DNA of 7,105 nucleotides from Nitrospinae bacterium RIFCSPLOWO2_12_FULL_45_22 (GTDB lineage Bacteria; 2-12-FULL-45-22): contig MHDQ01000093.1 of NCBI GenBank assembly GCA_001803565.1, forward strand, positions 1 to 7,105, given 5' to 3'. The position numbers were made by a program, and so were the translations under genes. This document shows, piece after piece, positions 2,319-6,904 of the stretch (position 1 is the first letter of the stretch; the number at the start of each line of letters is the position of its first letter). Below the pieces are notes generated by a model, which was not told the origin of the DNA, searched no databases, and saw nothing but the letters and a program-made list of their open reading frames with translations.

Positions 2319-3776
2319 TTATGGGTTACTCCCAGTCCTTATAGGATAATTAGAGGACATATCATCTTTGAATGTGTAATTTGGGTTGTGCAAGGCTATA
2401 TTCCAGGCACTGGTTGACCACTTCAGGTTTATGGCATTATATCCCAGGAGGTTAAGGAGCATGGTGATCTGTTCGGAAGCCCCCGCAGGTATGCAATACG
2501 GTACAATTTGCCGGTTCGGCGGTAGATGCTGCAAGCTGGCCAGGGCTGGTATATCCCGCCAGTTCATAGCCTTATGCCGGGGGATATTTACATGCCCGGT
2601 AAAGTTCGGAGGTAATACATCTAATATAAAAGGATCATTAGAGGTATCATCGCCTGCGCCATACAGCGCCCCATCACTATCATCGTCAAGGATCTCCATG
2701 AGCTCATCGGTATACATATACCATCTCTTAGCGACCATAGGGAAAATGATCTTTGCCCGCTCCAGGACGGCAGCCCTCATGTCTGTCTGGCTGGTACTGA
2801 TCCTGGGATAGGGATAGACGGGGCCATCTTCCAATTTTGGGGTGGTAGAATCTATGGGAAAGTTATTATTACTGGACCTCGAGTCCTCAGTAAATCTTCC
2901 CGGGGCAATGCTAGAATCCCTTGTCCAGCCGACCATACCCCATTTCAGGTTAAAGACTTTATGGTAGTTAAACCCCAATAGATTAAAATACATAACCAAC
3001 TGTTGCGATAGGCTATGATCCCGGTCTACTATGATAATCTCCCGGTCAGTGGGTAGTCGGTCAATATTTTCCTCTTTGGCCAACTCTTCAAAGGGAATAT
3101 TTATCGCCCCGGGTATATGCCCCCTTTCATACTCTGCCTTACTCCGTGCATCCAGCACAAACGGGTCATTAGCAGGATTATCCTGCTCGTCAATCTTGCC
3201 GTCCCCATTGTCATCCAGGAGGCCATAGAGATAACTGGCTTCCTTTTTATAGGGCAGCTTTTCTATTCCGGCAGCCGCCAGATAAGTGAAGGCCTTCTCA
3301 GCAATGGCAACGAATACTGGATCAGGATTGTTAATTGTAGGAAGACTTTCCCCTTGAGGAAGTACCATTAGAGTCACCTCATGCCTCCCTATATTCCCGG
3401 ACCTGTCTTTAAGACCGATGCCCAAGGTATTAAGTCCTTGAGAAAAGACTAATCCAGGAAAGGTGATGGTGACCTTTTTTTCGCCAACCGCCTTCATTTG
3501 GGCCGTCCCGCTTAATACGGCTGGTACTAGAAAATCATTGATAGACCAATTAAAGACGGTGCCGTTATAGGAGACTTCAAAAAAAGCGCGGTCTATATCT
3601 GAGAGCCCGTTCGGATCGGTTATAGTAAAGACCAGGTCAAGCGGCGAATAGAGACTTCCGCCGGTTAGGATATTGGTGATAGGCTGGGCACTAACCGGTA
3701 AAGTTTTGTGAAAGCTAAAAGCCAAGATAACTCCTAGTATCATTATAGAGATAACCCTGGTTCTTAATCTATTCAT
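2319..3776 (-). CDS. Exported Ig-like plus tandem rhodanese protein with acidic EF-hand-like loops
   Basis: The 485-residue protein starts at the ATG at 3774-3776, chosen because GGAGG lies 7 bases upstream (3784-3788) and the signal peptide MNRLRTRVISIMILGVI...VSAQP then begins properly; an ATG 10 codons earlier lacks this. Residues 31-140 look like a beta-rich Ig-like domain (TDPNGLSD, LKDRSGNIG). Two related modules follow. Module 1 (about 150-290) has an acidic loop DDNGDGKIDE (188-197), the rhodanese motifs DPFVLDARS and ERGHIPGAINIP, and LLGF...FNLKWGMVGW. The catalytic cysteine position reads VDRDHS, so this domain lacks the sulfur-accepting cysteine. Module 2 (about 330-462) has LDDDSDGALYGAGDD (363-377), DPFILD and YCIPAGASE with C428, so it may be active. 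In the family, rhodanese domains transfer sulfane sulfur or bind partners. This one should act in the periplasm or at the surface, possibly tuned by calcium (inference). It is the last gene of the envelope operon, 118 bases after the small exported protein. Confidence 0.85.
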   Translation of the reverse strand: MNRLRTRVISIMILGVILAFSFHKTLPVSAQPITNILTGGSLYSPLDLVFTITDPNGLSDIDRAFFEVSYNGTVFNWSINDFLVPAVLSGTAQMKAVGEKKVTITFPGLVFSQGLNTLGIGLKDRSGNIGRHEVTLMVLPQGESLPTINNPDPVFVAIAEKAFTYLAAAGIEKLPYKKEASYLYGLLDDNGDGKIDEQDNPANDPFVLDARSKAEYERGHIPGAINIPFEELAKEENIDRLPTDREIIIVDRDHSLSQQLVMYFNLLGFNYHKVFNLKWGMVGWTRDSSIAPGRFTEDSRSSNNNFPIDSTTPKLEDGPVYPYPRISTSQTDMRAAVLERAKIIFPMVAKRWYMYTDELMEILDDDSDGALYGAGDDTSNDPFILDVLPPNFTGHVNIPRHKAMNWRDIPALASLQHLPPNRQIVPYCIPAGASEQITMLLNLLGYNAINLKWSTSAWNIALHNPNYTFKDDMSSNYPIRTGSNP

Positions 3777-3894
3777 CTTTCTCCCTCCTTTTGAATAAAA
3801 TTCCATATTGAAAAAAGTCTCTTTTATCCTTGTATAAAGTTTAGATTGCCCAAGCTAACCCTACAGCCCTCACCGAGGGTAGAAACTAGTTTTT
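3777..3894 (-). other. Intra-operon spacer with GGAGG site and weak hairpin
   Basis: This 118-base spacer is the widest in the operon. It carries the ribosome binding site of the rhodanese gene and a nested weak stem, CTACCCTC/GAGGG...GTAG (about 3861-3883, minus strand), with no T-run after it. A TATACA hexamer is present near 3829-3836, but no good -35 box accompanies it at normal spacing. I therefore see no firm evidence for an internal promoter. Confidence 0.4.
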
Positions 3895-4218
3895 TCATGC
3901 GGCCTCTATACCTGCCTGGATACCTCCTATTTCAACCTCGAGATCATCCAGGGCCTGATCGTCTGAACCCAATATCCCGGCTGATAATTCATCTATCCCG
4001 GTAGGGGGCTCCGGCAGATCGGGTAAATCCCTTTCATTGTAAGATTCTTTCCTTACTATACCCTTATCCCTGTGGGCTCCAGGCAGAAGGGTAATGGATG
4101 GAAAGACAGGTAAATCATTTAGGGATTTGATCTCCTGGGCATAAGCCGAATCAGTTTTCAATATCAACCATAGGATAACTGTCCCCATAGTTAAGACCCA
4201 TAGTATTCTCTTAATCAA
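3895..4218 (-). CDS. Small acidic exported protein of unknown function
   Basis: I prefer the TTG at 4216-4218 as start: GGAGG lies 8 bases upstream, whereas the GTG nine bases earlier overlaps the ribosome binding site itself. This gives 107 residues. MIKRILWVLTMGTVILWLILK followed by AYA|QE is a clear signal peptide, probably cleaved after residue 27. The mature protein of about 80 residues has no cysteine. It contains a proline- and leucine-rich segment (DLPVFPSITLLPG, 35-47; DLPDLPEPPTG, 64-74) and an acidic C-terminus (GSDDQALDDLEVEIGG, 84-99). I do not recognise a family. It begins 26 bases after the thioredoxin gene and shares its transcript. It could be a substrate or accessory of the TPR/barrel protein, but that is inference from position only. 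Confidence 0.7.
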   Translation of the reverse strand: MIKRILWVLTMGTVILWLILKTDSAYAQEIKSLNDLPVFPSITLLPGAHRDKGIVRKESYNERDLPDLPEPPTGIDELSAGILGSDDQALDDLEVEIGGIQAGIEAA

Positions 4219-4244
4219 AAATATCACCTCCTTCCACTATCAGA

Positions 4245-4835
4245 TCATTGGGTATTCAAAAGATTCTCAATCAGGGAGCGGGAGAGGATATCTTCCCAGT
4301 CTCTGCCACCCAAAATTACCTTCTTTATCACCCCCTTTCTGTCAATCAAAAGAGTTGTGGGCATAAATTTGATCCTATATGCCCCCTCTATTTTGTGCGA
4401 TGGGTCTAAAAAGACGGGGAAGGTAAAGCCTCTCTCTTTGACAAAGGACTCAACCTTGTCCAGATTCCCTTTATCTACGGATATGGCCATTATCTTAAAC
4501 CCTTCATCTTTATAGTCCTGGTAAATTTGCTCCATGGAAGGCATCTCCGCCTCACAAGGCTTGCACCAGGTAGCCCAGAAGTTAAGGAGTACCACTTTAC
4601 CCCGATAACCTTTCAGGCTTATATCCTTACCCTCCATACCTTTAAGGGTGAAATCGGGGGCATAATTACCTACCATGGGTAATTCAACCTCTGGGTGTTC
4701 TTCACCCTCTTCCATTGGGGACGCCACGGCAAACGCTGCACCTTCTCCCCTTGGGCTGCGACTTCCGGGCAGACAAGATAAAAATAGATTAAAAGCTCCA
4801 AGAAGGGAAAATAACCACAAGACCTTTCTCTTCAT
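4245..4835 (-). CDS. TlpA/ResA-like thioredoxin lipoprotein
   Basis: This is a 196-residue thiol-disulfide oxidoreductase. The ATG at 4833-4835 is chosen because it starts a compact lipoprotein signal (MKRKVLWLFSLLGAFNLFLSC) with the lipobox LFLSC, C21 being the acylated residue. GGAGG lies 10 bases upstream; a GTG at 4839-4841 is the alternative, and a longer in-frame ATG at 4896-4898 would bury the signal. After a low-complexity linker (22-50) comes an AhpC/TSA-thioredoxin fold: APDFTL (59-64), YRGKVVLLNFWATWCKPC (77-94), and the cis-proline loop FMPTTLLID (157-165). The active site is C91-K-P-C94. Relatives reduce periplasmic disulfides, classically in cytochrome c maturation. Here no cytochrome gene is present, and its partners are an outer-membrane TPR barrel and a rhodanese protein. 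A likely job is keeping thiols of neighbouring envelope proteins reduced (inference). It lies 62 bases after the TPR gene. Confidence 0.92.
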   Translation of the reverse strand: MKRKVLWLFSLLGAFNLFLSCLPGSRSPRGEGAAFAVASPMEEGEEHPEVELPMVGNYAPDFTLKGMEGKDISLKGYRGKVVLLNFWATWCKPCEAEMPSMEQIYQDYKDEGFKIMAISVDKGNLDKVESFVKERGFTFPVFLDPSHKIEGAYRIKFMPTTLLIDRKGVIKKVILGGRDWEDILSRSLIENLLNTQ

Positions 4836-4897
4836 ATTCACATGCCCTCCTATTTGTATGAATAAAGTAGCAATCTGAATCCTCAGGCCCAAGCCCA

Positions 4898-6904
4898 TTA
4901 AAAATTAGCATTGAAAGTTAAATAAAATAGATTCCGGTCGTAGTTTCTATCAGTAGGGGCTGCCCTTCCAATATTGGAATTATTGGTTATATCCCGGTAC
5001 CTGAGGGAGACCTTGAAGTGGTCAAATATCTCCCGGGATATCTCGATGGAATAAGTAAAGCGGTTATCCCCTCTCTCCCTGAATAGATTCGTTCTGTTCT
5101 CATACAGTACCGGGATTAACATATTCTCTGTTTTTATAAAGTTGGGCCTTCCGAGGGTATCAAAGGGCCTTTGATCATGATAGATATACTGGTCAAGGGA
5201 TGAGTAGTTCCTTATCAAATATTCACCAGTTAAGTTGATATTGATGCTAAATATTAGGGGAAGGGAAAGCCGGGCTGATATTTCATGGCCGCTATAGGAA
5301 TAAGACTGGAAGAAGGGAAATTCTTCTGTCCCTTGCTCTTCCACCGGAGGAAGATAGGGGTCTCCTGGCCTAAACCCCTTCCTGCCCAACAGAAATGGCT
5401 GGGTTCCAGTCCGGTCATTTAAATCTTCCTCGGTATATTTATAGCTCAGCGTTAGAAGCCCCTTCCGGTTCATAAAATAGAAATACTGGGATAAGGAGGC
5501 AGTCCGCCTTATCCCTTCTAGATAGTCGTAGTCTGAACCTTTGGCATTTATCCACTGATAAGACAACTCCATCTTGGTAAACAAATTCCTTGTCTCCGTA
5601 AAGGTTATGCCTGGGGTAACTTTGTTGCTGGTTTGGTAGGGTTTATCATCCAGGTAATAGAAATACTTCTCGTATTCGAGTCCAAAAACTAATGGATCAA
5701 GTTTATATCTGGTATATAGCCTCCCGAAATGTCCCTGAAAATCGAATTCTTTCAGGTCTCTATATTGATCCTGGTAGAAGATATAGCGGGCACCTAGAGT
5801 AAGGTCGGGCCGGTTTATAAATTTGTACTCGCCCAAAAGGGTAGTATTTAACAGATTATCCGACTCCTGTGAGGTCTGATCCCCTGAGGAAAAGAGGGTT
5901 ACATTAGAATCGGACTGGCCGTTAGCATCAATACTCAATCGCCATCTTTTTCTGCTTCGCCTGGCCTCTTTGATCAGGTCAAGGTATCTCACGGCAGCAT
6001 CCTTGTATTTTGTCTTTCCTGCGATGGCCTTCTTGAACTCCATCTCTGCCCTATCTTCGTCCCCAGTCTGGAGAGCAGCTATACCGGTAAAGAAGATGAA
6101 CTTACCTTCTTCTGGTTTTAACACCCGGGCAGCGTCCAGGGAGTTAACAGCCGCCGGATAATTTCCCAATTTATAGTAGGTATAGCCCAGGTAATAGTAG
6201 ATAGCTGCCTCATTGGTACTGGCGACCGAGGCCTGTTCAAACTCCCGCACAGCACCCTTATAGTCACCCCTTTTAAACTTCTCTATACCCCTAGAATAGG
6301 ATACTTGTCCCTCTTCCTTGAGGATGGTATCCATTCTACCTTTCTCAATGGAATCCATCACCCGGCGCGCCTCTTCCCTCAATTCCGTTGAAGATTCCAT
6401 ATTTATAACCTTGGAGAACTCTTTTTTGGCCATTATTCCCAGGCCAGCCATGAAATATGTCATGCCCATGTTGAAATGGGAGTTAGCGGTCAGAGAAGGT
6501 TCAAGCCTGGCGGATTGCTTAAAAGAAGAGATGGCGTCATTCCAATTACCCATCTCATAATAGACAATTCCCAGTACATAATGGACAACACCTTCCTCGG
6601 GGTGGGTCTTCAGGATAATCTGGCACTCATCTACGGAAGATTGGTAATTCTTCAATTTGAGATAGGCTAAAGCCAGGTCAAGGCGGGTCTTAGTATTCGC
6701 TGGGTTTTCAGACAGAATGAGCTTTAATTCCTCTACTGCCTTTGCGTACTCCGCCTTTTTCAAGAATTCCTCTGCCGTTAATAGATGCGGGGAAGGGTTG
6801 GCTGCCAGGTTCTCTTTATCAGACCCGGCATATCCCTTATTGAGGCTGCCCAGGATCAACATAAAAACTAATATGAATAGCTTTGATGATTTATCTTTTC
6901 CCAT
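4898..6904 (-). CDS. TPR protein with C-terminal outer-membrane beta-barrel
   Basis: The preferred start is the ATG at 6902-6904, giving 668 residues with a normal signal peptide (MGKDKSSKLFILVFMLILG...GYAG). An in-frame ATG at 6938-6940 adds 12 residues before it; neither start has a good ribosome binding site. Residues about 40-310 form roughly seven TPR units, for example YVLGIVYYEMGNWNDAISSF, IEKFKRGDYKGAVREFEQA and YYYLGYTYYKLGNYPAAVNS. From residue about 321 (RWRLSIDANGQSDSNVTLF) to the end, alternating aromatic/hydrophobic and polar strands with acidic loops indicate a beta-barrel. The last strand, LFYLTFNANF, ends in Phe like a BAM recognition signal. The periplasmic-TPR plus barrel plan is shared with Slam lipoprotein exporters and PgaA/BcsC-type exopolysaccharide porins; I cannot assign it to one of these. 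It is the first complete gene of the envelope operon and may act as exporter or scaffold for the proteins encoded after it. Confidence 0.85.
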   Translation of the reverse strand: MGKDKSSKLFILVFMLILGSLNKGYAGSDKENLAANPSPHLLTAEEFLKKAEYAKAVEELKLILSENPANTKTRLDLALAYLKLKNYQSSVDECQIILKTHPEEGVVHYVLGIVYYEMGNWNDAISSFKQSARLEPSLTANSHFNMGMTYFMAGLGIMAKKEFSKVINMESSTELREEARRVMDSIEKGRMDTILKEEGQVSYSRGIEKFKRGDYKGAVREFEQASVASTNEAAIYYYLGYTYYKLGNYPAAVNSLDAARVLKPEEGKFIFFTGIAALQTGDEDRAEMEFKKAIAGKTKYKDAAVRYLDLIKEARRSRKRWRLSIDANGQSDSNVTLFSSGDQTSQESDNLLNTTLLGEYKFINRPDLTLGARYIFYQDQYRDLKEFDFQGHFGRLYTRYKLDPLVFGLEYEKYFYYLDDKPYQTSNKVTPGITFTETRNLFTKMELSYQWINAKGSDYDYLEGIRRTASLSQYFYFMNRKGLLTLSYKYTEEDLNDRTGTQPFLLGRKGFRPGDPYLPPVEEQGTEEFPFFQSYSYSGHEISARLSLPLIFSININLTGEYLIRNYSSLDQYIYHDQRPFDTLGRPNFIKTENMLIPVLYENRTNLFRERGDNRFTYSIEISREIFDHFKVSLRYRDITNNSNIGRAAPTDRNYDRNLFYLTFNANF

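Follow-up and report, generated by a model that had tools for sequence, protein, structure and literature searches.

The stretch analysed here, called the window, makes up the whole of contig C93 (7105 bp) in the metagenome-assembled genome (MAG) of Nitrospinae bacterium RIFCSPLOWO2_12_FULL_45_22, which totals 3.67 Mb in 321 contigs and is 85% complete. The element in question is a run of four genes on its minus strand, between positions 2319 and 6904, coding for predicted envelope proteins. All four open reading frames (ORFs) were confirmed and are listed below in the order in which they would be read, together with the features of the last one.

6904-4898, minus strand: protein with tetratricopeptide repeats (TPRs) and a predicted outer-membrane beta-barrel, 668 aa, signal peptide MGKDKSSKLFILVFMLILGSLNKGYAG (Pfam TPR, homologues, alignment and strand count)
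4835-4245, minus strand: TlpA/ResA-like thiol-disulfide lipoprotein (lipobox FLSC, active site WCKPC, cis-Pro motif FMPTT)
4218-3895, minus strand: small exported acidic protein, 80 aa in its mature form, pI 4.1, no cysteine, TTG start after AAGGAGGTGAT
3776-2319, minus strand: exported protein with an immunoglobulin (Ig)-like and two rhodanese domains, 485 aa, type I-like signal, not a lipoprotein (Pfam Rhodanese, 1.8e-21)
3239-2907, minus strand: rhodanese domain 1, which keeps LDAR and GHIPGAINIP (alignment with 22 family members)
3215-3180, minus strand: candidate calcium loop of the EF-hand type, DDNGDGKIDEQD (residues 198-209), an insertion ahead of the LDAR strand in domain 1
2720-2397, minus strand: rhodanese domain 2 (alignment), with its catalytic-loop cysteine at residue 438, codon near 2493-2495

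With start codons at 6904, 4835 and 3776 (ATG) and at 4218 (TTG), neighbouring genes are 62, 26 and 118 nt apart. The second, third and fourth genes each follow a strong Shine-Dalgarno sequence, namely AGGAGG before 4835, AAGGAGGTGAT before 4218 and AAGGAGG before 3776. A hydrophobic export signal was read at the N-terminus of all four proteins, type I-like in three of them and with a lipobox-like FLSC in the TlpA-like one, while Pfam confirmed the TPRs, the TlpA/AhpC-TSA domain and the two rhodanese stretches. An earlier note on this DNA had described four minus-strand genes with export signals at these same spacings, which the ORFs, starts and ribosome-binding sites confirm. GC content and GC at third codon positions (GC3) are alike across the four genes. 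A pattern scan, overall not above chance, found no minus-strand terminator between them; the RNA fold of the 118-nt gap is not unusual (z = -0.03), and no structured leader, Rfam family or tRNA was found in the window. The four genes are thus laid out like one operon and would be co-transcribed. Since the contig ends at 7105, the upstream end of this operon is out of view.

Concerning the TPR-barrel protein, the repeats span approximately residues 50-325 and the barrel residues 330-680, in the numbering of the 680-aa ORF. The barrel part matches no Pfam or NCBIfam model, but it shows 15 amphipathic strands vs. 9.8 +/- 2.1 in shuffled sequences (4 of 300 shuffles as high) and the protein ends in Phe. 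It was aligned end to end with 15 homologues, at 18-31% identity to the family, which share a (Y)DDN-like motif at the barrel's beginning and, in most cases, a C-terminal F; the N-terminal TPRs, the YDDN-like motif and the C-terminal aromatic residue of the family are all present in the window protein. Single-sequence structure prediction gave a mean predicted local distance difference test (pLDDT) score of 37, so that the barrel topology rests on sequence only. Homologues of the barrel half were found in 17 of the 386 sampled genomes, in addition to a paralogue on contig C196 of the same genome. Of the nine homologue loci tested for the gene adjoining the barrel, eight have a FecR-domain gene there. 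At locus L074, the barrel was confirmed to have a CHASE2-cyclase protein beside it, similar-looking genes being present near other barrels. The second TPR-barrel gene of the genome, the C196 paralogue (G000:C196:2105-3682, locus L072), likewise has an adjoining FecR-domain gene, the usual partner of the family. No FecR was found by Pfam on the window contig, where the TlpA, small-protein and rhodanese genes stand in its place; this suggests that the barrel has been taken over for another function.

The TlpA-like protein has the features of the TlpA/ResA group, i.e. an exported and tethered thioredoxin fold, a WCxxC active site and the cis-Pro. It matches Pfam AhpC-TSA at 3e-33 and comes nearest to the NCBIfam ResA subfamily (8e-44), below its cut-off (149.6 bits vs. 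170), so that it was assigned to no subfamily. As for the small acidic protein, neither Pfam nor NCBIfam gave a match; in the 386 genomes it gave only chance-level matches, and it is an orphan.

For the rhodanese protein, an AlphaFold2 (AF2) model using 22 relatives has a mean pLDDT of 76; the two rhodanese domains lie for the most part above 85, the preceding Ig-like domain is uncertain, and a Foldseek search with this model retrieved ordinary rhodaneses. The cysteine inventory is short: C438, at the catalytic-loop position of domain 2, is the only cysteine of the mature protein. A partial copy of the EF-hand-like loop, DDDSDGALYGAG, stands at the equivalent place in domain 2; both loops fall below the Pfam cut-off (E 0.11 and 0.8). 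Similarity to the exported tandem-rhodanese family covers both domains (tblastn down to 1e-38, identity roughly 25-38%), and the LGY..NLKWG..W signature is present along with the two domains, but the family loop VYCYTGHTGQ is in neither of them.

A contig search with the window rhodanese as a single sequence returned nothing, and a four-sequence profile returned 39 loci, distributed among Chloroflexota, Calditrichota, Gemmatimonadota, Actinomycetota, Bacteroidota, MAGs titled Deltaproteobacteria and others. As a whole, 43 rhodanese loci were examined, 41 of them distinct (L107 duplicates G008, and L108 duplicates G007); they were retrieved via the conserved family motif, and divergent members are therefore under-sampled. 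In most members, each of the two domains has VYCYTGHTGQ or a loop close to it, and the signature LGY-x-A-x-N-L-K-W-G...W is present; most are lipoprotein-like. A decaheme-type cytochrome of about 385 aa adjoins the rhodanese in 20 of the 25 loci L085-L109 (tblastn); among the five others, L103 and L109 are cut by the contig end and L097 is a short contig. In L091 and G345, the cytochrome, a barrel and further multiheme genes form one run. The Flavobacteriaceae loci hold NrfD, two Sulf_transp (YeeE/YedE) genes and two tandem rhodaneses, with a Porin_O_P-type barrel directly downstream in 10 of 13 cases; barrels adjoin the rhodanese genes in Lutibacter and in L111. The family thus recurs together with outer-membrane barrels and with genes of sulfur or extracellular respiration. 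These decaheme or NrfD/YeeE/porin neighbourhoods support the sulfur side of the chemistry that the earlier note had inferred for the four genes.

Three further observations were made on this family. The pair formed by a rhodanese with the near-invariant VYCYTGHTGQ loop and the decaheme cytochrome (e.g. L091:153-2614 and L099:8742-10825; also G345, G007 and G008) occurs in many phyla and is possibly a widespread, uncharacterised pair of sulfur or metalloid respiration. Secondly, the order NrfD, two Sulf_transp, small rhodaneses, two tandem rhodaneses and Porin_O_P was found in L110, L112, L114, L116, L117 and L119-L122, mostly from Lutibacter; this Flavobacteriaceae run resembles a cluster for the respiration of polysulfide or thiosulfate, equipped with a porin of its own. 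Finally, L040:6585-7556 (G265) codes for a single exported family rhodanese after a long low-complexity repeat (SGGLYG-type), unlike the other members.

In the family tree, the window rhodanese joins those of L088 and L101 (support 93/91) on a long branch (1.99), a placement that is not certain. The loops of these two relatives are also substituted (YSDTG/YDQNG in L088, YSNTG/VCSETG in L101), and the three proteins share, among other residues, APGR or APDR behind the first NLKWGM..WT motif and a C-terminal P-I or A-I-x-x-G. As judged from alignment and tree, the window protein is best placed on a divergent branch with L088 and L101, and not as a typical CYTGHTG family member. Such cysteine-substituted proteins are rare: no clear further one was found in 363 genomes of the class of L101 and 155 genomes of the class of L088. 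The same-strand cluster L088:1-8536, from a MAG titled Deltaproteobacteria WY2.bin112, comprises DsbD_TM/CcdA, a putative cysteine desulfurase, the rhodanese, MauE/DoxX and an Ig-domain protein, then a redoxin of the TlpA type (FWATWCGPC), a transporter of the YeeE family and a second Ig protein, with PKD; L088 also has a candidate DUF3343 carrier. It is the only other locus in which a TlpA and this rhodanese family are clustered, the TlpA of L085 being about 9 kb off. UGSC-family genes lie within about 5 kb of the rhodanese in both L088 and L101, on the other strand in the latter.

No system with the window's gene combination came up in literature searches. The earlier note's statement that it knew of no named system with this combination overlooks extHIJKL of Geobacter, the nearest named system, with three of the four kinds of part in common. 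There, the rhodanese ExtH, the outer-membrane barrel ExtI and the approximately 104-aa ExtJ are followed by a multiheme cytochrome; the cluster, which extends as extHIJKL(MNOPQS), is an electron conduit whose rhodanese is highly variable between species, extI is required for selenite and tellurite reduction, and extKL is a proposed selenoprotein (PMC6148476, PMC5877670). Elsewhere, it has been proposed that polysulfide enters Deferribacter autotrophicus by way of a porin and a rhodanese (PMC6896113). The window and extHIJKL are alike in having an exported rhodanese, an outer-membrane barrel and a small protein, with barrel and rhodanese in one cluster; in the window, the barrel gene lies three genes upstream of the rhodanese gene on the same strand. 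The two differ in that the window has no multiheme cytochrome and has a TlpA, its rhodanese is not a lipoprotein and its barrel carries TPRs and is not Porin_O_P-like. The non-heme parts of extHIJKL are matched in kind only, by type of part, and since the cytochrome is also missing, the window was not filed as an ext cluster. Concerning the cytochrome, no CxxCH protein was found on the window contig, which extends only some 200 bp beyond the start of the first gene, and a cytochrome gene is possible past that point.

The loci found in the present searches resemble the window in other respects. Those with a CYTGHTG rhodanese and a decaheme cytochrome (Anaerolineae, Calditrichota, Gemmatimonadota and others) share the rhodanese family, the two domains and export, whereas the window has lost or degenerate catalytic loops, no cytochrome, and an added Ig-like domain and EF-hand-like loops. 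The Lutibacter cluster NrfD-YeeE-YeeE-rhodanese-rhodanese-Porin_O_P also sets tandem rhodaneses beside an outer-membrane barrel, in a sulfur context, but the window has neither NrfD nor YeeE, and its barrel family is unrelated. L088 shares a substituted-Cys rhodanese, a TlpA-like redoxin and Ig-domain proteins on one strand, and differs by its CcdA, YeeE, MauE, cysteine desulfurase and UGSC-like genes and by the lack of a TPR-barrel. Finally, the loci combining a TPR-barrel with FecR, and in some cases a CHASE2 cyclase, share the barrel family, FecR and CHASE2 being absent from the window. On these comparisons, the window looks like an unusual variant of the rhodanese and outer-membrane-barrel clusters known from metal- or selenite-reducing bacteria, its exact four-gene set having been found nowhere else.

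The reading that we prefer, with a probability of about 0.42, is that the four-gene operon is an envelope module handling sulfane sulfur (polysulfide or persulfide, possibly the selenium equivalent). The barrel would be an outer-membrane channel or anchor, whose periplasmic TPR arm would dock the partner proteins; the tandem rhodanese would bind or accept sulfane-sulfur species on C438, the membrane-tethered TlpA dithiol would reduce the resulting persulfide or disulfide, and the small acidic protein might be an accessory of the complex. Such a module would work like the rhodanese and barrel part of extHIJKL, with a dithiol protein in the place of the cytochromes. The genes, their domains and export signals, the cysteines and the family and neighbours of the rhodanese are observed, whereas we infer the formation of a complex, its substrate, the direction of sulfur flow and the redox step between TlpA and rhodanese. 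This reading is supported by the operon layout with its strong ribosome-binding sites, by the sulfur and cytochrome neighbours of the rhodanese family and the barrels near its genes, and also by L088, where a TlpA-like redoxin and a rhodanese are clustered, by the grouping of the window rhodanese with L088 and L101, by the precedent of extHIJKL and by the sulfur enzymes of the organism itself. Its genome has a coenzyme A (CoA)-disulfide reductase-rhodanese fusion (C156), a protein that joins two rhodanese domains to a metallo-beta-lactamase (MBL) fold (C210) and, on C129 (L137:2571-6422), a molybdoenzyme that resembles tetrathionate reductase but scores below the NCBI TtrA cut-off. A 3-heme CxxCH protein is encoded just upstream of the latter, on the same strand.

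Several observations weigh against it. The catalytic cysteine is gone from domain 1, where the alignment of the 22 members has VDRDHSLSQ in place of VYCYTGHTGQ, and in domain 2 the loop has changed to YCIPAGASE and LDVR to LDVL, with loss of the Arg; sulfurtransfer may consequently be lost. The tandem rhodanese of the earlier note therefore holds for the two domains, but not for intact catalytic loops. The relatives of the barrel have FecR or CHASE2 genes as neighbours, never a rhodanese, and because they adjoin FecR and not sulfur genes, the barrel by itself gives no indication of sulfur chemistry. In the organism's own genome (85% complete), nothing homologous to the decaheme partner was found beyond a weak match to the 3-heme protein on C129. 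Finally, the full set of four genes is present in none of the 43 rhodanese loci nor at the barrel homologue loci. The search for the same gene set in other genomes, which had been suggested as a check, thus came back empty at these loci, and of the proposed single unit the operon-like layout is supported while a conserved system is not.

The altered loops bring in the main rival, in which the rhodanese is a pseudo-enzyme, a calcium-stabilised, non-catalytic binding or structural module of the periplasm or cell surface, with TlpA and the barrel acting on, e.g., the disulfides of exported proteins. The changes in both domains, the inserted EF-hand-like loops and the equally substituted loops of L088 and L101 are all in keeping with it. 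Set against these are the position of the sole mature cysteine, exactly at the catalytic site of domain 2, and the sulfur genes among which L088 still sits. An inactive N-terminal and an active C-terminal domain is, moreover, the arrangement of classical thiosulfate sulfurtransferases, to which the window protein would conform. We regard this rival as rather doubtful.

Whether the four genes belong together at all is a separate matter, since a TPR-barrel/TlpA pair and a small-protein/rhodanese pair could be separate units lying side by side. The lack of conservation of the gene set, the orphan small protein and the habitual FecR partner of the barrel family (paralogue included) fit such a chance neighbourhood, and the 118-nt gap has room for a promoter. 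But the single strand, the short gaps, the four export signals and the absence of a terminator in the chance-level scan argue otherwise, and the pairings recur elsewhere: barrel with rhodanese in three unrelated contexts (including that of PMC6148476) and rhodanese with TlpA in L088. These recurrences support the earlier proposal, which the FecR neighbours of the barrel's relatives do not. As for conservation, the searched set contains just one further member of the phylum, whose genome is 68% complete and has no clear homologues, which is too little to judge by. Chance neighbours are, in our opinion, unlikely.

A surface-assembly or secretion pore (Slam-like or polysaccharide-exporter-like), with the rhodanese and/or the small protein as its clients, is very improbable. 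The order of TPRs followed by a barrel and a weak Pfam match to TPR_Slam in the TPR part are in its favour, but neither the Slam barrel nor the barrel of another known TPR-barrel exporter was matched in Pfam or NCBIfam. The Slam barrel model is absent among the 25 best of the 31 Pfam families at E <= 1, all of them TPR-like; among the PDB profile matches listed, coverage of the protein is restricted to the TPRs; and no lipoprotein client is present except TlpA. Nothing was found in favour of the small protein, which has no homologue, being the client of a secretion route, as had been suggested.

An alternative in which the substrates of the module are oxyanions of selenium (or tellurium) and not sulfur species is the least probable, for although extI is needed for selenite and tellurite reduction, extKL is a proposed selenoprotein (PMC6148476, PMC5877670), and L088 and L101 have UGSC-family genes nearby, the former with its cysteine desulfurase and candidate DUF3343 carrier, nothing in the window indicates selenium, and the organism's own genome lacks UGSC while its CoA-disulfide reductase-rhodanese fusion and Ttr-like enzyme indicate sulfur. 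UGSC genes are present in 14 of 241 genomes; the selenium link through UGSC near L088 and L101 was not borne out.

A further and quite speculative reading, which we consider improbable, is a cytochrome-free counterpart of the rhodanese-barrel electron conduits: a thiol relay in which a TlpA dithiol would serve a single-Cys pseudo-tandem rhodanese held on an outer-membrane TPR-barrel. At that membrane, or across it, the relay would move electrons or sulfane sulfur, a task for which relatives have a multiheme cytochrome. Should the four-gene module work in the manner set out above, rhodanese-barrel modules would be shown not to depend on heme. The window brings together an exported rhodanese family, repeatedly neighboured by genes of extracellular or sulfur respiration, with a TPR-barrel and a reductant of the thioredoxin type, and does so in a lineage of which hardly any relatives have been sequenced. 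Testable functions for ExtH-type proteins are suggested by the wider distribution of the family, which adjoins decaheme cytochromes in many phyla and NrfD/YeeE/porin genes in Flavobacteriaceae.

Two further genes, both on the minus strand, complete the window.

2031-736, minus strand: double-cubane-cluster anaerobic reductase (NCBIfam equivalog NF040772), 287 nt downstream of the rhodanese gene
320-3, minus strand: truncated DsrE-family gene (Pfam), after the double-cubane-cluster reductase

To our knowledge, no physiological role has been assigned to the double-cubane-cluster reductase; the succession of the reductase gene (736-2031) and the DsrE-family gene (3-320) points to a possible sulfur link for this enzyme.

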